Source: Chloroflexota bacterium
GTDB lineage: Bacteria; Chloroflexota; Dehalococcoidia; Lucifugimonadales; Lucifugimonadaceae
Direction: 5' to 3'
DNA: 64,000 bases
Assembly: GCA_002730555.1 (NCBI GenBank)
Contig: PCAM01000002.1
Location: 22,768 to 86,767 of the forward strand
A program made the position numbers and the translations under genes. Positions 38,758 through 59,740 of this stretch are shown here, in pieces. Under the pieces are notes generated by a model. That model was not told the origin of the DNA and searched no databases. It was given only the letters and a program-made list of their open reading frames with translations. How positions within the stretch are numbered: the stretch's first letter is position 1; each line of letters starts with the position of its first letter.

Positions 38758-39189
38758 TTAGTCCTGATCGGGGTTTACGCGCTCTCTCACGTACGCGAGC
38801 ACCGATTCGATTCCCTCGAGCGGCGCTCCTAGCGAGATCGCGATCTTCACGTCCGCCTCGACAAGTTCCTCCTGCCCCAGCGCGGCGTGGGCGACGGCAC
38901 GGTTTCCGTACGCGTCTGAGTTGGAGGGGTCCAGGCTAATCGCCCTGTCCAGGTTGGTCACGGCCTGCACGAAATTGCCGAGGGACAGGTAAGCGGTGCC
39001 GAGGTTGAATTGCAGAGTGGCGTCTTCCGGTTCTATGTGTTGAGCCTGTTCAAACGATTCCGCAGCACGATCCGGAAACCCAAGTTGCGCGAATTTGAGC
39101 CCGCGCTGAAACCAGCCCAGGAAGTCGTCGGAAGCCGGCTCGGAGTCTTGGCCCGGTTCGATAGGTTGATCGCTCGGTTGTAGATTCAC
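38758..39189 (-). CDS. TPR repeat protein
   Basis: This 143-residue soluble protein has three to four tetratricopeptide repeats: GLKFAQLGFPDRAAESFEQA, NLGTAYLSLGNFVQAVTNLD and NRAVAHAALGQEELVEADVK. The N-terminal 25 residues are acidic and disordered. There is no signal peptide. TPR proteins of this size act as adaptors; the partner is unknown. The start is GTG with a weak ribosome-binding site. Confidence 0.85.
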   Translation of the reverse strand: MNLQPSDQPIEPGQDSEPASDDFLGWFQRGLKFAQLGFPDRAAESFEQAQHIEPEDATLQFNLGTAYLSLGNFVQAVTNLDRAISLDPSNSDAYGNRAVAHAALGQEELVEADVKIAISLGAPLEGIESVLAYVRERVNPDQD

Positions 39190-39282: not shown

Positions 39283-39918
39283 ATGGCTGTCGCATCGATA
39301 CGATCAACGAAACGCGGACGGCGTGTGGCGCTGGACGCCATCGCGGCGTTGTTGGCGTTCGCCGCGGCAGGTTGCGGTTCGGGCTCGTTATCGACCGATG
39401 AAGCCGAGCCGCCCGCATCCACTGTGTCAGCGCCGACAAGTCCGCCGGCGACAACGGCGATCGTAACTTCCCCGTCGCTACTTGATCTGACACCTGCCAC
39501 ACCTGCGGCGGCGGCAACCAGTGCTCCGATGAAGAGTTCAGGCGCTGCGGTTCCAACCCCTGAGAACGCCCCTTCGCCCACCTCACCCGTTCCCACGCCG
39601 GCGCTTCCCGGCGACGACTCTGCAACAGTGACGTCGACGCCCACACCTCCTCCTACCGCCACAGCCACAGTTGCGCCGCCAGCAGACACGGCGGCGAACA
39701 TAATCGGGTTCGCCCACCCGAACGTCACGGTCGCCACCGGAACCACGATCACCTGGACCAACCAGGACGACGCGCCTCATACCAACACTTCCGGAGGTCC
39801 GGGCGCCACCACCGGCGAAACCGATGGCGAGGTCTTTGATCCCGGTGGAGCGTACTCGCTCAGATTCGACGTTCCAGGGCAGTTTGCGTACTTCTGTACT
39901 ATCCATCACTTCATGTAG
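39283..39918 (+). CDS. Cupredoxin (plastocyanin/amicyanin-like) lipoprotein, cut by a stop in its last strand
   Basis: This 211-residue blue-copper protein has an N-terminal signal with lipobox-like FAAAGC, then a Pro/Thr/Ala-rich spacer to residue 140, then the domain. Copper ligands are His in DDAPHTNTS and Cys, His and Met in YFCTIHHFM. The frame ends right after the Met ligand with TAG. The next codons in the same frame read ATVTVQ and then stop at 39939, just what the final beta strand of this family looks like. So a nonsense change (or stop-codon readthrough) is likely; copper binding may still be possible. Confidence 0.82.
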   Translation: MAVASIRSTKRGRRVALDAIAALLAFAAAGCGSGSLSTDEAEPPASTVSAPTSPPATTAIVTSPSLLDLTPATPAAAATSAPMKSSGAAVPTPENAPSPTSPVPTPALPGDDSATVTSTPTPPPTATATVAPPADTAANIIGFAHPNVTVATGTTITWTNQDDAPHTNTSGGPGATTGETDGEVFDPGGAYSLRFDVPGQFAYFCTIHHFM

Positions 39919-40041
39919 GCAACGGTGACGGTCCAGTAGACGACAACAGGCTCAAACAAACACGACGTACATCTCTGAACGGCGGGAACCTTAACGCCGG
40001 GAGGAGGCCCGGGCGCGATAGAATCGCCCTAACCCAGCCTG

Positions 40042-40105: not shown

Positions 40106-41029
40106 ATGCGCATCGTGCTAATCGGTCAGCAGGCATTCGGTCAGTCGGTACTGGAGGCGATCCTTGAAGCCGGGAAAGATGAGGTCGTGGGGGTCTTCTG
40201 TTCTCCGGACCACGAAGGCCGGCGGGAAGACCCGCTCAAGGCCGGCGCTGTCGAGAAGGACATCCCGGTGTTCCAGCCGGGCCGTTTCCGCAGCGTAGAT
40301 GCCATCCAGCAGTTCAACGGGTTGTACCCTGACCTGTGCGTGATGGCCTACGTGACGGACATCGTTCCGATGGAGATGATCGACGGCCCTACCCACGGCA
40401 CCATCCAGTACCACCCGTCGCTGCTCCCTCTCCACCGCGGGCCCAGCTCTATCAACTGGCCGATCATGATGGGCGAGACGCGGACTGGATTGACGATCTT
40501 CTGGCCGGACGAGGGGTTGGACACCGGCCCCGTGCTTCTTCAGAAAGAGGTTCAGATTGGGCCGGACGACACGCTCGGATCGGTCTATTTCAACTCCCTG
40601 TATCCGATGGGCATTTCGGCGATGCTTGAATCGATCGACCTCGTCCGAGACGGGAACGCGCCGAAGATCGTCCAAGATGAGTCAAAGGCGACCTACGAGA
40701 GCTGGGTGAAAGCCAGTGACGGGGCGATCGACTGGTTGCTGCCCGCTCAACAGATCTACAACGTGATACGGGGCTGCAACCCCCAGCCGGGCGCGGGTTC
40801 CACATACGCCGACGAGCGGCTTCGGATTTTCGACTCCGCTCTCGGAACCTCCGGGATGTCCGGGTCCGAACCGGGGACGGTCATATCGTCCGGGGAAGAG
40901 GGGTTTGAGGTGGCGACGGGCGACGGCAGTGTGTTGGTCAAACGGGTGCAGCGGCACGGCGGACAAAAAGAACCGGCCGCAGAATTCGCATCAGCGGCCG
41001 GGCTCAAGATCGGTGATCGCCTCGGGTGA
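40106..41029 (+). CDS. Stand-alone 10-formyltetrahydrofolate hydrolase/formyltransferase domain protein
   Basis: This 307-residue protein matches the folate-binding hydrolase half of 10-formyl-THF dehydrogenase (ALDH1L1) better than methionyl-tRNA formyltransferase. The N-terminus MRIVLIGQQAFGQSV, the phrases HPSLLPLHRGPSSINW and DEGLDTGPVLLQKE, and the C-terminal domain with NVIRGCNPQPGA all follow that family. The carrier-protein-like and aldehyde dehydrogenase domains are absent, so it would release formate or transfer formyl from the folate. GGGAGAG precedes ATG 40106. It could balance one-carbon units or formylate another amine. Confidence 0.82.
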   Translation: MRIVLIGQQAFGQSVLEAILEAGKDEVVGVFCSPDHEGRREDPLKAGAVEKDIPVFQPGRFRSVDAIQQFNGLYPDLCVMAYVTDIVPMEMIDGPTHGTIQYHPSLLPLHRGPSSINWPIMMGETRTGLTIFWPDEGLDTGPVLLQKEVQIGPDDTLGSVYFNSLYPMGISAMLESIDLVRDGNAPKIVQDESKATYESWVKASDGAIDWLLPAQQIYNVIRGCNPQPGAGSTYADERLRIFDSALGTSGMSGSEPGTVISSGEEGFEVATGDGSVLVKRVQRHGGQKEPAAEFASAAGLKIGDRLG

Positions 41030-43731: not shown

Positions 43732-45885
43732 ATGAACGTCGACGACGGACACACGCTTAATAGCGATATCGACCCGGAATCGAGGTACGCCGCCGTCGTC
43801 GAAACGATGGTGGACGCCGTCATCACCATCGACGAAACCGGAATCATCCTCTCCGGCAACTCTGCCATCAAGCGCATCTTCGGTTATGAACTTGAAGACG
43901 TGCTCGGCCGGAGCGTTTCGACGCTCATGCCCACGGCGTTCAGTTCCAATCACGATCAGCACATCCAGAAATATCTGGAGACGGGCAAGGCCTCGATAAT
44001 CGGCATCGGCCGGGAAACGATAGGCCAGCGCGCTGACGGCTCTCAGTTCCCGATCGATCTGGCCATTTCAGAAACCCAGATCGCTTCGGGCCGGCTGTTC
44101 ACCGGCATCGCCCGCGACATCAGCGAGCGCAAGCGGGCTGAAGCGGAGATCCAATCGCTCAACATGGAGCTTGAAAACCGGGTGGAGGAGCGGACCCGGC
44201 AACTGGAGTCCGCCAACGCCTCTCTCTCCCGGGAAGCATCGGATCGGGCCGCGCTGGCGGAGATGACGCGGATCATGACCTCCTCGCCGCGAGTCGGAGA
44301 TATCTTCGGACATTTCGCCGAGCAGATCGAGAACCTGATGCCGTTCGATCGGATGTCGATCTGCATATTCAATTCAGATGGGACCCTGCTGACGGAAACA
44401 TTCGCCGTGGAGCAATCCGGAGCGCTAACCAGCGCCGATCCGGATTTGGGGGCCCCTTGTCCGGTCGCTGGCACCGTCGCCGCTCAGATGCTGGATGACA
44501 GATCTGGAGTACTCGTCGGCGGTGCGTCGGTGAGCGAGATCCTCCGCTATTTCCCGTGCCACGCTCCGCTGTTCCCCGGATTGCAGGAAGTGGCGTCCGC
44601 CACAAAGTCCCAGGACACGTCCGCTCTGGCGGCGCCGATCATCGCCGCGGACCGTGTGATCGGCACTCTCAATCTGGCCTCTTTGCACACCCATGCGTAC
44701 GACGATCGAAATCTGGCGATGCTGGAGATGATCGGCAGGCAGATCGGCGCTCCGATCGAAAACTCACGCCTGTACGAGGAAGAGGCGACTCTGCGAGACG
44801 CCGCAGAGGTGGCGCGCGCGCGCCTGGAGAGCATCCTGCAGGTGTCCGCCGCGGCCGTGCTTATCGTGAACGCCGAGGACGGACGCGTGCTGTTAGCTAC
44901 GCATGAAGCGGAGCGGATCACCGGCAACTCGATCAATCCCGGGGCGCTTCCGGCCGAGTACCGGAAATCGATCAAATACTGGAATCAGAACGGCGGCCAC
45001 CTTGAGATAGATGACCTCCCGCTTTTGCGTGCCATCAGGACCAGTGCCGTCGTTCGGGAGGAGGAGGTCATCTTCGAGAAACCGGACGGGACGCGGACTC
45101 CTGCGCTTGTGAGCGCGGCCCCCGTCCTTGCGTCGGACGGACACGTCACGGCGGGCATCGCCGTATTCCAGGACATCACCGAGTTGAAACTCCTGGACGA
45201 GGTGAAGGCCGATTTCCTGTCGATGATTACGCACGACCTGCGCGGTCCTGTGACCGCCATAAAAGGGCTGGCGGCATCGGCGATGACGCACGCCCCGGAG
45301 TCGGGCAAGAACGCAGAGCAGCTACGGGAAGAGCTGGCCGCAGTGGACGACGAGTCTGACCGGCTAACGGAGCTCGTCTCAAACCTTCTTGACATGTCCC
45401 GCATCGAGGCCGGCGCCGTGCGGCTCGAACCGGAGGAGACCCACATAGCGGACCTCACCGACGACGCGGTGCGCAGGGCGAAGCGATCACGACTGGGCGA
45501 GGGAAGGGCTATCGAAGTGAATGCCCCTCTTGGCCTACCGCTTTTCTATGTGGACCCGGTGCAGATCGGACGAGTGCTGGACAACCTGATATCGAACGCT
45601 TTGAAGTACTCCGACGGCCCGATAAAAGTCGACGCGGGCCACGATCCTGAGAAGAATGCACTGGTGACCACAGTGCACGATTCCGGGGTCGGGCTCGCTC
45701 CGGAGGTCCAATCCGCCGTGTTTGAGAAGTTCTTCCGCGTGACCGACGTCGGACGAAAATCCGGCATGGGCGCGGGCCTAGGCCTGGCTATCTGCAAGGC
45801 AATCGTGGAGGGACATGGGGGCGAGATAAACGTGGAAAGCGAGCTCAGACAGGGGTCCAGCTTTTCATTCACGCTTCCCGTTTAG
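43732..45885 (+). CDS. FixL-like heme-PAS / GAF / PAS hybrid histidine kinase
   Basis: This 717-residue sensor kinase has no transmembrane helix. PAS1 (about 18-135) resembles oxygen sensor FixL: His74 (NHDQHIQKY) and Arg94 (IIGIGRETIGQ) are 20 residues apart as the heme-binding His200 and oxygen-contacting Arg220 are in FixL. A coiled coil (about 135-170) follows, then GAF (about 185-345), a second PAS-like region (365-490), HisKA with His501 (ITHDLRGP), and HATPase with NLISNALKY, DSGVGL and GAGLGLAI. Heme binding is an inference. Its partner regulator is 82 bp downstream. Confidence 0.9.
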   Translation: MNVDDGHTLNSDIDPESRYAAVVETMVDAVITIDETGIILSGNSAIKRIFGYELEDVLGRSVSTLMPTAFSSNHDQHIQKYLETGKASIIGIGRETIGQRADGSQFPIDLAISETQIASGRLFTGIARDISERKRAEAEIQSLNMELENRVEERTRQLESANASLSREASDRAALAEMTRIMTSSPRVGDIFGHFAEQIENLMPFDRMSICIFNSDGTLLTETFAVEQSGALTSADPDLGAPCPVAGTVAAQMLDDRSGVLVGGASVSEILRYFPCHAPLFPGLQEVASATKSQDTSALAAPIIAADRVIGTLNLASLHTHAYDDRNLAMLEMIGRQIGAPIENSRLYEEEATLRDAAEVARARLESILQVSAAAVLIVNAEDGRVLLATHEAERITGNSINPGALPAEYRKSIKYWNQNGGHLEIDDLPLLRAIRTSAVVREEEVIFEKPDGTRTPALVSAAPVLASDGHVTAGIAVFQDITELKLLDEVKADFLSMITHDLRGPVTAIKGLAASAMTHAPESGKNAEQLREELAAVDDESDRLTELVSNLLDMSRIEAGAVRLEPEETHIADLTDDAVRRAKRSRLGEGRAIEVNAPLGLPLFYVDPVQIGRVLDNLISNALKYSDGPIKVDAGHDPEKNALVTTVHDSGVGLAPEVQSAVFEKFFRVTDVGRKSGMGAGLGLAICKAIVEGHGGEINVESELRQGSSFSFTLPV

Positions 45886-50471: not shown

Positions 50472-51260
50472 TCAGTCCGCCGGTGAGGGCTCTGGCACGC
50501 CCTCAAGCGGTGATGATGCGGAAGCGTATGCCTTCGCAGGGATGCGCCCCGCCTGGTAGGCCATTCTGCCGGCCTGTACGCCAAGCTTGAACCCCTCACC
50601 CATCAAGGCCGGGTCTTCGGCCATCGCGATGGCGGTGTTAACCAGCACGGCGTCCGCGCCGACCTCCATGACAGAGGCCGATTCCGAGGGGGTGCCAAGA
50701 CCAGCGTCGACCACAACGGGGACCGAAGCCTGTTCGATGATTATCTGTATTTCGTCCAGGGTCAGCACGCCGCGACCGGAGCCGATGGGCGAGCCGAGTG
50801 GCATTACGGTTGCGCAGCCGATGTCTTCCAGCCGGCGGGCCAGTACGGGGTCGGCGCCGATGTACGGCAGCACCACGAAGCCGTCCTTGACCAGCCGCTC
50901 AGATGCCTCAAGCGTCCCGATCGGGTCCGGGAGAAGGTACTTGAGGTCCGGGATCACCTCTACCTTGATCCAGTCGGATCCGGTGACCTCACGCGCCAAC
51001 TGGGCGGTGAACACGGCCTCGTCCGCCGTTGTGGAACCGGCTGTGTTCGGGAGGATCTGATACTTGTCCCAATCGAGGTAGTCGAGGAGCGTCTTCTCGT
51101 TTGGGTCGTCAAGATTCAGGCGGCGAATGGCGACGGTGATGATCTCCGTGCCAGACGCCTCTACGGACGCCACGAGGTCTTCCGGGGACCGGTGCTTGCC
51201 GGTGCCCGTCATCAGGCGCGACGTGAAGGTCTTACCGCCGATTGTTAGGTGGTCGCTCAT
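50472..51260 (-). CDS. thiG: Thiazole synthase
   Basis: This 262-residue TIM-barrel enzyme makes the thiazole phosphate of thiamine from DXP, dehydroglycine and ThiS-thiocarboxylate. The imine-forming Lys is in WIKVEVIPD, and [11 protein letters not shown] and [21 protein letters not shown] are family signatures. The ribosome-binding site ACGGGAG lies 7 bp before the ATG. A TPP riboswitch precedes it. ThiO or ThiH, which supply dehydroglycine, are not in the window. Confidence 0.95.
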
Positions 51261-51430: not shown

Positions 51431-51596
51431 GAGCGCGAATGCGAATCCGCGCCTCTCAGTACGGTCAGCAAGCGTAAGTCCATCGAGCCAGAGCGTCAAA
51501 TGGGTTGCGTGGGCAATCGCATCGAGCCACCGGTGGTATTCTGGCCGCCCACTTGCTATTTCTTCGTATCAATAGCCAGAACACTGGAGCTTCTTG

Positions 51597-53602: not shown

Positions 53603-55465
53603 CTAGTTGCCGGACGACTCGTCTCCTGGTTCCAGTAGCGTTTCGTCGTCGGGGTCGTTGCCCGATCTGAGCGCCCGCATGCTGGCGGTTAGCGCCCTGC
53701 GCCAGACGTTCAGCTCACGTCGCAGTGCGGAGCGGAACGGCCGACCGGACTCGCCGATGTTCCTGTACTTCCGCTGGCGCCGTCTCACCAGCGTCCGGCG
53801 GTGCCGCTCAACGACCTCCGTGATCTCGATCATGAGCGCCCGTTTGAGCAGGCGTGACGCCTCCAGCGGGTCGCGGTGAGCGCCGCCGTCCGGTTCTCTA
53901 ACGATCTCGTCGATAATCCCCATGCGGCGACTGTCTACGGAAGTAAGCCGCAGCGCGCCAACCACCTGGTCTGCCGCCGCGGAGTCACGTAGCTCGGCCA
54001 CCGCCGCTCGTTCCGGCGAGATCGGCGTGTAGATGGCGTTCTGGAGCATCAGAACGCGGTCGGTCACGGCGAAGGCCAGCGCCGCCTCACTTCCGCCCTC
54101 CCCGATCAACACGGAGATAGTTGGTACCTCGACATCCAGGAGCGTCGATATCGTTTGAGAGATGGCCTGCGCCTGCCCGCGTTCCCACGCCTCCAAGTCG
54201 AGCGCCGACCCGGGCGTGTCCACGAGCGTCACGATCGGCAGGTTGAATCGGGCCGCAAATCGGACGGCGCGTCGCGCCTTACCAAACCCTTCAGGGGTTA
54301 TAGATCCGCTTGCAGACAGGCCTTCCGGTGTGTCGTCCTCGGATGACGAAATCATGCCGCTCGGCGGGGTTTTCTCCTGCCCGATCACGACTACCGACTG
54401 GCCCGCCAGACGTGCGATACCGGTGATTACCTCAGACGCGTCGGCATACTGGCGGTCGCCGTGAATCTCCACGAGATTGGCGAACACCTGGTCGATGAAG
54501 TGGCGTGATGTTGGACGATCCGGGTGACGGGCGAGCTGCACCATCTCCCACGCCTCCATGCGTCTCGGGCGTGCCCGTGGCGGGCGGCCGCGGTGCCGTT
54601 TAGCGAGACGGAACTCGGGCCTGAGCAGTTCCAATATCGTGGAAACGACGTGCTTGATTCGCTCGCGGTCGACCACTCCGTCGAGCATGCCATGGCGGAA
54701 GTGAACCTCCGCCGAGTGCTGCCCTGCGACGAGTGATCCGCCGGATTCTTCTTTGAGGGAACGGAACGGGGCGAAACCCACATGCGCGCCGGGTTCGGCA
54801 AATATCAGGTCCGCCTGCGATCCGAACGATGCGTACACCTGGCCGGTCGCCGGGTCGCCGAGAACAGAAACGAGGGGCACACCGCGCCTGTGCATCTCAT
54901 TGGCGGCGACGGTCGTCTTCGCCATCTGCATGAGCGAGAGGACGCCTTCCTGGATACGTGCGCCGCCGCTGTTGATCACGGAGATGGCGGGGTAGCGCTT
55001 GCGCGCCGCCATCTGAAGTGCGAGGGTGACCTTTTCGCCGACCACAAGGCCCATGCTGCCGCCCAGGAAGCCGAAGTCCAAGACTATTAGCACGACCGGC
55101 GTGCCGCCGATGGTGCAGACGCCGGTGATGACGGCCTCGGTCAATCCGGTCCGGTCCTGGTCCTGCAGCAGCCGGTCACGGTAAGAAACACGTGCGGAGA
55201 AAGAGAGCGGATCGAGCGACCTTATCCAGCGGGAGGTCTCACGAAAAGTCCCGGAATCCGCCAGTATATCGACCCGTCTGCGGGCGGACATGGTGTAGTG
55301 GAACCGGCAACACGGGCAGACCAGGTACCGCTCGTATGTGGGACTGCCTTCGAGCGATCCGCCACAGGCGAGACAGGTTGTCCGAACACCCTCAAGGTCG
55401 AGTTCGTGCTGTTCGGAGCTGTCGGGCGGATCCTGGCCCGGGAAGAGTGGGGTGATATTGGTCAC
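53603..55465 (-). CDS. accDA: Acetyl-CoA carboxylase carboxyltransferase, fused beta-alpha (AccD-AccA)
   Basis: This 620-residue protein joins both carboxyltransferase halves. Residues 1-285 are the AccD part with a zinc ribbon (Cys31, Cys34, Cys50, Cys53) and the crotonase-like fold GLVVGEKVTLALQ. From about 305 the AccA part follows: HPDRPTSRHFIDQVFANLVE, PEGFGKARRA, TPGSALDLEAWERGQAQA and SVLIGEGGSEAALAF. Together they transfer CO2 from biotin to acetyl-CoA for fatty-acid synthesis. The fused order beta-alpha fits the usual gene order accD-accA. The start is GTG with GAGG upstream. The last 60 residues are a basic extension. Confidence 0.93.
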   Translation of the reverse strand: MTNITPLFPGQDPPDSSEQHELDLEGVRTTCLACGGSLEGSPTYERYLVCPCCRFHYTMSARRRVDILADSGTFRETSRWIRSLDPLSFSARVSYRDRLLQDQDRTGLTEAVITGVCTIGGTPVVLIVLDFGFLGGSMGLVVGEKVTLALQMAARKRYPAISVINSGGARIQEGVLSLMQMAKTTVAANEMHRRGVPLVSVLGDPATGQVYASFGSQADLIFAEPGAHVGFAPFRSLKEESGGSLVAGQHSAEVHFRHGMLDGVVDRERIKHVVSTILELLRPEFRLAKRHRGRPPRARPRRMEAWEMVQLARHPDRPTSRHFIDQVFANLVEIHGDRQYADASEVITGIARLAGQSVVVIGQEKTPPSGMISSSEDDTPEGLSASGSITPEGFGKARRAVRFAARFNLPIVTLVDTPGSALDLEAWERGQAQAISQTISTLLDVEVPTISVLIGEGGSEAALAFAVTDRVLMLQNAIYTPISPERAAVAELRDSAAADQVVGALRLTSVDSRRMGIIDEIVREPDGGAHRDPLEASRLLKRALMIEITEVVERHRRTLVRRRQRKYRNIGESGRPFRSALRRELNVWRRALTASMRALRSGNDPDDETLLEPGDESSGN

Positions 55466-55566: not shown

Positions 55567-57987
55567 TTAAAGAACGGGCCGTGGTTTTCCCGGCTCGCCG
55601 ATCCCCACGATCCCGGCCTCTTCCAGTTCATCCATGAGCCGCCCGGCGCGGGGGTAGCCGATGCGCAAGCGGCGCTGCAGAAGCGAAATGGACAGCGTCT
55701 TATGCTGGCCCGCCATTTCGCAAGCCCTGTCGAACAGCGAGTCGCCGTCGTGTCCGCCGTCGCCGAAGTCGCCGGTATCCGCCGATGCCGCTTTGGGTTC
55801 AATTTTCTGCAGTCGCGGCCCATCCACGGCCTTCCAGAAATCGACAACCCCCGCTACCTCGGGGTCGCCCAGGAACGCGCCCTGGATACGCAGGGGCTTT
55901 GGCCTGTCGATCGGGAGGAAGAGCATGTCGCCCTTGCCGAGCAGCTTCTCGGCACCCGGGCCATCGATGATCGTCCGTGAGTCGATCTGCGAGGTCACGC
56001 CGAACGATATGCGGCTCGGGAAGTTGGCCTTGATGAGGCCGGTCACGACATCGACCGATGGCCGCTGAGTGGCGATGACAAGATGGATGCCCGTGGCGCG
56101 ACCGAGCTGCGCCAGCCTGCACAGCAGACGCTCTACTTCTGAAGCCGAGGTCAGCATGAGGTCGGCGAGCTCGTCCACCATAATGACGAGATACGGCATT
56201 TTCGTGACGGCCTGCTCGTTGTAGGCAACTATGTTGCGGACGCTGGCGCTCTCCAGCACTTTGAAACGGTCCGTCATTTCGTCAACGAGCGACTTCAAGA
56301 TGCCTACCGCGATGTCTGATTCAACCACCGGCGCTGCGTACAGATGCGGAACGCCGGTGTACGGCGTTAGTTCGACGCGCTTGGGGTCGATCATCACTAT
56401 GCGCACCTGCTCCGGCGTTCTGCTCATTAGCAGTCCGGTGGCGATGGTGTTCATGCACACGCTCTTGCCTGACCCGGTGGCGCCCGCTATGAGCAGGTGC
56501 GGCATGCGTGTCAGGTCGATCACCACGTGCTCGCCACCGCTGCCAACGCCGAGCGGGACCGGGAGCGGCGCTGCAGATGCGAACTCCTCGTAAGCGTCCG
56601 ATTCGATCACGGTACGCAGGGTGACGGGCGTCGGCCGAGAGTTCGGCACTTCTATACCGACGAGGGACGCTCCCGCCACCGGCGCTTCAAAGCGCAGGCT
56701 GGGCGATGCGAGTGACAGCGCGAGGTCTTTCTCGCGTGCCAGGATGTTGTCCACCCTGACCCGCTGGCGTCCGGAGCTGCGTTCCGCCCCGGGGGCCTGT
56801 TCCGCCACGAGGTTCTTGGACCCACGGCCACGGCCCCAGCCCGGCACGATGCCGTACATCGTCACCCGGGGACCCACCCTGACATCCCCAACCGATACCT
56901 CGATACCGTGGTCGGCCAGGGTCTCTACTATGAGTTCGGATGTAGCCTCAATCTCCGTTTCCGGAACGCCACCCCCGGGAGCGGTCTTGAGCATCTCGAT
57001 ATCGGGGAGCGGCCATGCAAAGGGCGGCACGTGCAGGAAGGAAGGAAGGATCGGAGCGAGGAGCCCAGGCTCGCCTTCCCCAAGATCGCTTTCAGGGTCT
57101 TCTAGGTCCAGCGCGTCTTCATCATCGATCAGTGTCTCGACGACCGCCCTGACGGTTCTGCCGTCGGCGTCGATGATCGTCTCCTCGGTCGGATCGATCT
57201 CGGTGGCGAGGAGGTCCGGCCGGACATTGCCGACGAGCGGCGGGGCCGGTTTGTCGGTGGTGAACGACGGATTTTTTATCTGATCCGCCTCGGTGCCGAA
57301 CGTGGCGGCGCCGTTCATGAGCTCTTCCGCCGTGGGGCCGGATTCTGCACGGGAGGATCGCCACGCCGCTATGCGTGACGCCAGACCGGCAATCCCAGCG
57401 ATGAAGAGCACGCTGAAGGCGACCAATCCGGACCAGATCGTCTGCAACGTCGCAAGCGCTATGCGCGGCCATGCGGTCGCCGCAGCGATGACGACGAGAA
57501 CGACTACACGTGATATGGCGAGCGCCGTCTGGCTGGCGGTTCCGCCGGAATCTGCCCATTCCGCCGGCCAGCGGGCGAGGTAGTTACCAAAAGAGCCCCC
57601 GTACGACTGGTTTATCAAGTTTTCGCGGCTGTTCGCAAAGTCGTCAGGTACCTGAAACAACCCGAGCACGCCGACGACCGCCAGCCCGAGTACGGAGATC
57701 GAAAAGGCGTAGCGCGGGTACGTTTTGAATAACGCCGGCGCAACGTTCAGGAGCATCACGACCGCAGCTAACCAGATGAGCAGGGGTACCGCGGACCAAC
57801 CGAGATGGAACCGCAAGGCGTCGAATAACAGCACGGCGAGCACAGCCGCGGCGGCGAGAACGATCACCGCCGACCGTGAGTATGCGTTTCTTGCCGTGGC
57901 GCTGACGCCGATCGCGCCCAGAGCGTATCCGCTCACCGTGAGGCGGCGCGTCTGCGATCCAATTGTCTGGATAGCTCCGCCTAACAT
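55567..57987 (-). CDS. ftsK: FtsK/SpoIIIE DNA translocase
   Basis: This 806-residue septal DNA pump has five hydrophobic helices in the first 210 residues (around 39-60, 65-86, 92-112, 158-180, 183-208), then a linker, then the motor. Walker A is LIAGATGSGKSVCMN and Walker B is YLVIMVDELADLM. The last 65 residues (LLQRRLRIGYPRAGRLMDEL) form the gamma winged helix that reads oriented DNA signals. AGGAGG precedes the ATG. It lies downstream of RNase J on the same strand. Confidence 0.95.
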   Translation of the reverse strand: MLGGAIQTIGSQTRRLTVSGYALGAIGVSATARNAYSRSAVIVLAAAAVLAVLLFDALRFHLGWSAVPLLIWLAAVVMLLNVAPALFKTYPRYAFSISVLGLAVVGVLGLFQVPDDFANSRENLINQSYGGSFGNYLARWPAEWADSGGTASQTALAISRVVVLVVIAAATAWPRIALATLQTIWSGLVAFSVLFIAGIAGLASRIAAWRSSRAESGPTAEELMNGAATFGTEADQIKNPSFTTDKPAPPLVGNVRPDLLATEIDPTEETIIDADGRTVRAVVETLIDDEDALDLEDPESDLGEGEPGLLAPILPSFLHVPPFAWPLPDIEMLKTAPGGGVPETEIEATSELIVETLADHGIEVSVGDVRVGPRVTMYGIVPGWGRGRGSKNLVAEQAPGAERSSGRQRVRVDNILAREKDLALSLASPSLRFEAPVAGASLVGIEVPNSRPTPVTLRTVIESDAYEEFASAAPLPVPLGVGSGGEHVVIDLTRMPHLLIAGATGSGKSVCMNTIATGLLMSRTPEQVRIVMIDPKRVELTPYTGVPHLYAAPVVESDIAVGILKSLVDEMTDRFKVLESASVRNIVAYNEQAVTKMPYLVIMVDELADLMLTSASEVERLLCRLAQLGRATGIHLVIATQRPSVDVVTGLIKANFPSRISFGVTSQIDSRTIIDGPGAEKLLGKGDMLFLPIDRPKPLRIQGAFLGDPEVAGVVDFWKAVDGPRLQKIEPKAASADTGDFGDGGHDGDSLFDRACEMAGQHKTLSISLLQRRLRIGYPRAGRLMDELEEAGIVGIGEPGKPRPVL

Positions 57988-58081: not shown

Positions 58082-59740
58082 TCAGAGATCGAACGCCACG
58101 GGGATGATGGATGGACGGCGCCGCGTTCGCTGGCTGAAGAACCTGCCCACGGTCTTTTTGACGATGGCCTCGACCTCGTTCCACTGTATGGACTTATCGG
58201 AATCGCGGTCAAGAACGGCACTCAACTCATCTATGGCATCTTCAAACAGGGCATCGGCCTCTGCGTAGTGGACGAAGCCGTTTGAGACGATCTTCGGCCG
58301 TCCGGCGACGCGACCGTTCGAGTCCCGGCCGAGCACCACCACGACGAAACCGTCACGGGCCAGCAGCCGGCGCTCAACGATAACGTTGCCGTGCTCGTCC
58401 CATTTTCCGTAGCCATGGATGAAGACGTGTCCGGCGGGGATTTGCTCCACCACTTCCGCCGTGTCACCGGTCAGGCGCAGCACGTCGCCGTCCTGCAGCA
58501 AGAAGGCGTCGTCCGGGTGCACGCCGTGTTCGATCGCGAGATCAACGTGCGCCCGCAGCATCCGGTACTCGCCGTGGATCGGCACAAAGTGCCTTGGCTG
58601 CAGCAGATTGTGTACCGCCCGCAACTCCTCGCGGGCCGCGTGGCCGTGTACATGGACGTTCCGGGTGTTGTGGGTGACAACGTGCGCCCCTTGCTCCACG
58701 AGGTCGTTGATCAGGTTACTGACCGATGTTTCGTTGCCGGGGATCGGCGTGGCGGAGATTATGACGGTGTCGCCCTTCCGGATATCGACATCGTTGTGCG
58801 TCCCGGCGGCCATGCGGGCGAGTGCCGATTGCGGCTCTCCCTGCGCACCGGTGTTCATGTAGACGACCCGGTGGCCCGGAAGCCCCAGGGCGTCCTGGGC
58901 GCTGATCAGGGTCTCGTCTTTGATGTTCAGGTGGCCGAGGTCACGTGAGATCTTGAGGTTGTTAATCATGCTGCGGCCGACGATGGCGAGCCGGCGTCCG
59001 TGGGCGACCGCGGCATCGGCGATCATCTGGATGCGGGCGATCTGTGAGGCGAAGCTGGCGACCAGCACCCTGCCCTCGGCGTTTCCGACGATGTCGTGCA
59101 GGGTTTGCGCAACCTCCCTGTCGGAGCCGGAGTAGCCCTCGTTTTCGGCGTACGTGGAGTCGGCCATGAGGAGGAACACGCCGTCCGCTGCGAACTCCGC
59201 CATGCGGGCGAAGTCAGTCGGCTCGCCGATGGTCGGGTCGTTGTCCAAACGGAAGTCTCCGGTGTGGACGACCGTCCCGAGCGGGGTCCGCAGCGCAATG
59301 CCCATGGCGTCCGGAATACTGTGACACACGTCAAACCATTCGGCCTCGAAAGTGGTCCCGAAGCTGACCTGTTCGCCGGGTGTGACCAGGTTCAGATCGG
59401 CCTCACGCAGGAGCCCCCGCTCCTTCAGCTTGTTGCGGATGAGCGCCATCGCCATATTGGGCGCGTAAATCGGGACGGGGAGCGCTTCCATGATGTGCGG
59501 CAGTGCACCAATGTGGTCCTCGTGTCCGTGTGTGACGAGGATAGCCCTGACACGATCGATGTTCTCGATCAGGTAGTTGATGTTGGGGATGACGATGTCG
59601 ATCCCCGGCATGTCGTCTTCCGGGAACAGGACCCCGGCGTCGATTACAACGACGTCCTCTTCCGTTTCGAGGACCATCATGTTTTTCCCGATCTCACCCA
59701 GCCCGCCCAGCGGCAGGATCTTTAGCGCTTCGTTGGCCAT
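58082..59740 (-). CDS. rnj: Ribonuclease J
   Basis: This 552-residue metallo-beta-lactamase/beta-CASP nuclease has 5'-3' exo- and endonuclease activity on RNA. The zinc motif is VTHGHEDHIGALPHI, further ligands are in VVHTGDFRLD, the beta-CASP part has LVASFASQIARIQMIADAA and HVHGHAAREEL, and the C-terminal domain is complete to RRRPSIIPVAFDL. AGGAG lies 5 bp before the ATG. Presence of RNase J agrees with an RNA-decay system unlike the RNase E type. Confidence 0.95.
   Translation of the reverse strand: MANEALKILPLGGLGEIGKNMMVLETEEDVVVIDAGVLFPEDDMPGIDIVIPNINYLIENIDRVRAILVTHGHEDHIGALPHIMEALPVPIYAPNMAMALIRNKLKERGLLREADLNLVTPGEQVSFGTTFEAEWFDVCHSIPDAMGIALRTPLGTVVHTGDFRLDNDPTIGEPTDFARMAEFAADGVFLLMADSTYAENEGYSGSDREVAQTLHDIVGNAEGRVLVASFASQIARIQMIADAAVAHGRRLAIVGRSMINNLKISRDLGHLNIKDETLISAQDALGLPGHRVVYMNTGAQGEPQSALARMAAGTHNDVDIRKGDTVIISATPIPGNETSVSNLINDLVEQGAHVVTHNTRNVHVHGHAAREELRAVHNLLQPRHFVPIHGEYRMLRAHVDLAIEHGVHPDDAFLLQDGDVLRLTGDTAEVVEQIPAGHVFIHGYGKWDEHGNVIVERRLLARDGFVVVVLGRDSNGRVAGRPKIVSNGFVHYAEADALFEDAIDELSAVLDRDSDKSIQWNEVEAIVKKTVGRFFSQRTRRRPSIIPVAFDL

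Follow-up and report, generated by a model that had tools for sequence, protein, structure and literature searches.

A premature TAG ahead of the closing strand of a cupredoxin gene in a Chloroflexota genome, with gene decay as the most likely cause

In the stretch of 64,000 nucleotides analysed here ("the window"; Chloroflexota bacterium, family Lucifugimonadaceae, contig PCAM01000002.1), a cupredoxin reading frame ends one beta strand earlier than its family would lead one to expect. The initial annotation had noticed this stop and left three causes standing side by side: a nonsense mutation, suppression of the stop, or programmed readthrough. Which of them applies is the question raised by this locus. 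Our analysis indicates that the observation is real and that its cause is most likely an ordinary one, namely gene decay.

The truncated frame and the strand beyond its stop

The locus is composed of the following features:

38758-39189, minus strand: TPR protein gene, the left flank used for synteny
39283-39918, plus strand: truncated open reading frame of 211 amino acids, with ATG at 39283 and TAG at 39916-39918
39373-39375, plus strand: Cys31 of the signal/lipobox AFAAAGC, lipobox-like by inspection only
within 39283-39918, plus strand: Thr/Pro/Ala-rich linker between the signal and the cupredoxin domain
39694-39915, plus strand: amicyanin-like cupredoxin domain as far as, and including, the axial Met, from a profile match and alignment A1
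39778-39780, 39895-39897, 39904-39906 and 39913-39915, plus strand: putative copper ligands His, Cys, His and Met
39916-39918, plus strand: premature TAG, at a codon that reads CAG in G003 and in G005 and CAA in the two copies from G001
39919-39936, plus strand: untranslated remainder ATVTVQ, corresponding to the last beta strand of the fold (domain residues 75-80 in the model)
39937-39939, plus strand: ancestral stop, also TAG, at the position of the orthologues' stop
40106-41029, plus strand: formyltransferase-like gene, the right flank used for synteny

The frame thus ends where it had been said to end, at a TAG immediately 3′ of the Met codon in YFCTIHHFM. Beyond it lie the six codons GCA ACG GTG ACG GTC CAG and then the second TAG, which places the premature stop seven codons before the original end of the gene. 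The further claim that these codons encode the closing strand of the family held up as well, since the matches to both family profiles lengthen when the TAG is read as a residue and the orthologues share the tail. With PF00127, the score rises from 29 to 37 bits (curated cut-off 21.2) and the match, which had ended at profile position 88, now runs from 10 to 99 of 99; with TIGR02657, the gain is from 42.2 to 47.9 bits, the restored match reaching position 82 of 83 and both scores lying below the cut-off of 110.2 bits for this amicyanin equivalog. Moreover, among 3077 six-frame stops in the window, only the cupredoxin TAG is followed by a tail of the form [AG]x[VIL]x[VIL]x-stop, a pattern chosen post hoc and carried by the orthologues too. 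Judged from these sequence patterns, the tail is not a product of chance.

The His, Cys, His and Met residues, which we take to be the type-1 copper ligands of the family, are all invariant in alignment A1. The closest solved sequence matches are the cupredoxin domain of a copper nitrite reductase, a blue copper domain protein and amicyanins. The protein shares with amicyanin and plastocyanin the ligand spacing His...Cys-x2-His-x2-Met and the beta-sandwich, but differs from them in scoring below the equivalog cut-off, in its long Thr/Pro/Ala linker and in ending before the last strand, whereas in the solved amicyanins the match runs to the last profile position, closing strand included. In the structure model of the domain (mean pLDDT 86, pTM 0.75), residues 75–80, which follow the Met, form a confident beta strand, with mean pLDDT of about 92–94 in blocks 71–81. 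A complete beta-sandwich is therefore not encoded by the frame as it stands, the closing strand lying 3′ of the TAG and being present only if the stop is read, and we regard the gene product as a truncated derivative of a PF00127 family member rather than a complete member. According to the model, loss of this strand would probably destabilise the domain.

The stop codon and the locus in related genomes

Comparison with orthologues, which had been proposed as a check, was the most informative step. Three genomes of the same genus (G003, G005 and G001) carry the cupredoxin gene in the same setting, with the TPR gene on one side and the formyltransferase-like gene on the other, giving four syntenic copies, two of them from G001, where one of the two contigs shows the right flank only. 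These two similar G001 copies (L084 and L085), lying on separate contigs of one assembly, are perhaps strain variants that were binned together. In all four copies the codon after the Met encodes Gln (CAG in the G003 and G005 genes, CAA in the G001 pair), and all four end as MQAxVxVQ-stop at the place of the window's second TAG. Hence the lesion is most simply explained by one C-to-T transition, CAG to TAG. Orthologues ending naturally at the Met would have spoken against a lesion; none was found, all class-level matches listed extending past the Met. No homologue among the four orthologous copies and the class-level matches listed has a stop at the same codon. In-frame stops do occur in other homologues, within the domain in G112 (TAG), G212 (TAA) and contig C6 of G037 (TAA), and as a single TAG in a cupredoxin homologue of G051, yet each is at a different site, and such a scatter of mixed TAG and TAA codons is what random decay would give.

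The gene is also missing from this locus in part of the genus. In four species (G002, G004, G006 and G007), both flanks are present with no cupredoxin between them, the distance from flank to flank being 189–260 bp against 916 in the window, 1050 in G003 and 998 in G005, and no match to the first or the second cupredoxin was found in these genomes. By the flanking formyltransferase (83–85% identity), these four are the closest relatives of the window's species. In a tree of three flanking proteins they fall in two places, with modest support on the relevant branches (80 and 84), which suggests two independent losses in the genus. In G014, from a different genus, a cupredoxin adjoins the same formyltransferase, and thus the presence of the gene at this locus is probably ancestral.

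Taken with the damage to a second cupredoxin described below, the orthologous Gln and the empty locus in four species argue for the first of the three causes. The product of the intact gene would have been a blue-copper electron carrier of amicyanin-like type, exported and probably lipid-anchored. More recently, a C-to-T transition would have turned CAG, the codon for the Gln that follows the axial Met, into TAG. Since release factor 1 (RF1) should terminate translation there, the product would lack its closing beta strand, would probably have no stable fold and would be non-functional. This would be an early step in the loss of a dispensable gene, in a lineage from which cupredoxins are disappearing. 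We give this reading as a whole, in which the mutation is genuine and no fault of assembly, a probability of roughly 0.8. It resembles other bacterial nonsense pseudogenes in its single sense-to-stop change, its intact orthologues and the loss of the gene in related species, and differs from them in that the lesion would be very young and lies very near the 3′ end. Counting against decay, none of the four putative copper ligands has been lost and there is no sign of relaxed selection. A codon model gave a dN/dS of 0.08–0.13 on the window branch, with no difference from the remaining branches (likelihood ratio test p 0.53–0.99), the lesion being too young or the signal too small. This low value indicates that the cupredoxin domain was constrained until recently; it fits a young lesion, and equally an artefact or a gene that is still used.

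The most serious competitor to a real nonsense mutation is an artefact of assembly or sequencing, or a minority-strain base in a metagenomic consensus, the living gene having CAG. A single base separates the window gene from an intact one, dN/dS is low, the remaining frame and the ancestral stop are intact, and the genome is an incomplete assembly (2.57 Mb in 41 contigs, 91.7% complete). Nonetheless, the conserved genes of the window show no other in-frame stop, and the absence of the gene elsewhere in the genus makes a real lesion unsurprising. We consider such an artefact improbable, at about one chance in eight.

Truncation, readthrough and suppression

Perhaps the 211-amino-acid form works as it is, ending at the axial Met. 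Its four putative copper ligands are retained; on the other hand, all relatives listed extend beyond the Met and residues 75–80 are modelled as a confident beta strand, which leaves a functional truncation very unlikely.

Equally doubtful is a readthrough of the TAG, programmed or at a low level, that gives some full-length protein. Readthrough has been proposed for bacterial genes that contain in-frame stops and have a low dN/dS (PMC7918605), and the window gene shares both properties. That argument, as given there, rests on conservation of the stop in evolution and fails here, where other species do not share the stop, unlike what is argued for the proposed readthrough genes. In addition, the RNA 3′ of the TAG folds no better than shuffled sequences (z +1.19) and RF1, with its GGQ and PAT motifs, is present. 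Programmed readthrough, the third of the causes first put forward, thus finds no support, the stop occurring in no other homologue listed and the downstream RNA having no notable structure. A related idea, in which a leaky stop peculiar to this species tunes down full-length cupredoxin as a regulated intermediate before gene loss, seems just as unlikely.

The remaining cause, suppression, had led to the suggestion that a suppressor tRNA and other genes with in-frame UAG be looked for. None of the 41 tRNAs scoring above the cut-off in this 91.7% complete genome has a stop-reading anticodon (CUA, UUA or UCA); all are ordinary in this respect, including the tRNA-Leu whose anticodon UAG reads the codon CUA. 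tRNA-Ile(GAU) was not recovered from the genome, which means that the tRNA set is incomplete and that a suppressor could sit in the unassembled part. Two sub-threshold tRNA fragments are incomplete (L080, at 103008–103075 of contig C6, and L081, at 23421–23476 of contig C8, both in the window's own genome, G000). These 3′ fragments end alike in AGGGCCCACCA and are possibly integration scars. Within the window, TAG is the commonest stop, closing 14 of 31 conserved genes, the cupredoxin included, and the other conserved genes that end in TAG do so at, or a few to about 20 residues from, the ends of their orthologues. In the window's conserved genes, no second in-frame TAG was found. Many apparent in-frame stops proved false: those at 50472–51260, 53603–55465, 55567–57987 and 58082–59740, for example, belong to shadow frames opposite real genes, the one at 51573 lies upstream of the true start, and the one at 45883 is a gene end. 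Furthermore, the stop that closes the restored frame is a TAG as well, and general suppression would read that codon too. Genome-wide suppression or reassignment of UAG, whether by a suppressor tRNA, pyrrolysine or a recoded code, found no supporting point and, with RF1 present, is largely refuted and the least probable of all the readings.

The second cupredoxin and the meaning of the loss

The only other significant match to the domain in the window's genome is a remnant on contig C21 (77674–77787, minus strand; L138, 76000–80000), lying in an open stretch of about 59 codons that follows an argS-like gene. The remnant matches the final part of syntenic proteins of 423–443 amino acids in G001, G003 and G005, where this second cupredoxin is full length, and the downstream sequence is shared. 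With a premature TAG in the first and a remnant of the second, the species seems to have lost or damaged both of its cupredoxins. Among the eight genomes, nirK (TIGR02376) was found only in G005 (L151) and G001 (L152); it was found neither in G003, the exception, nor in the five genomes whose cupredoxins are broken or missing, the window's own included. This gives a weak hint that the cupredoxins may have been lost after a redox partner such as NirK had gone.

Consequently, the premature TAG should not be counted as evidence of recoding in the window's genome. It is worth noticing that the co-loss of two cupredoxins, perhaps together with NirK, offers a small lead on their redox partner. Finally, this gene has apparently been caught at the first step of its loss, within a genus in which other species are already without it altogether.
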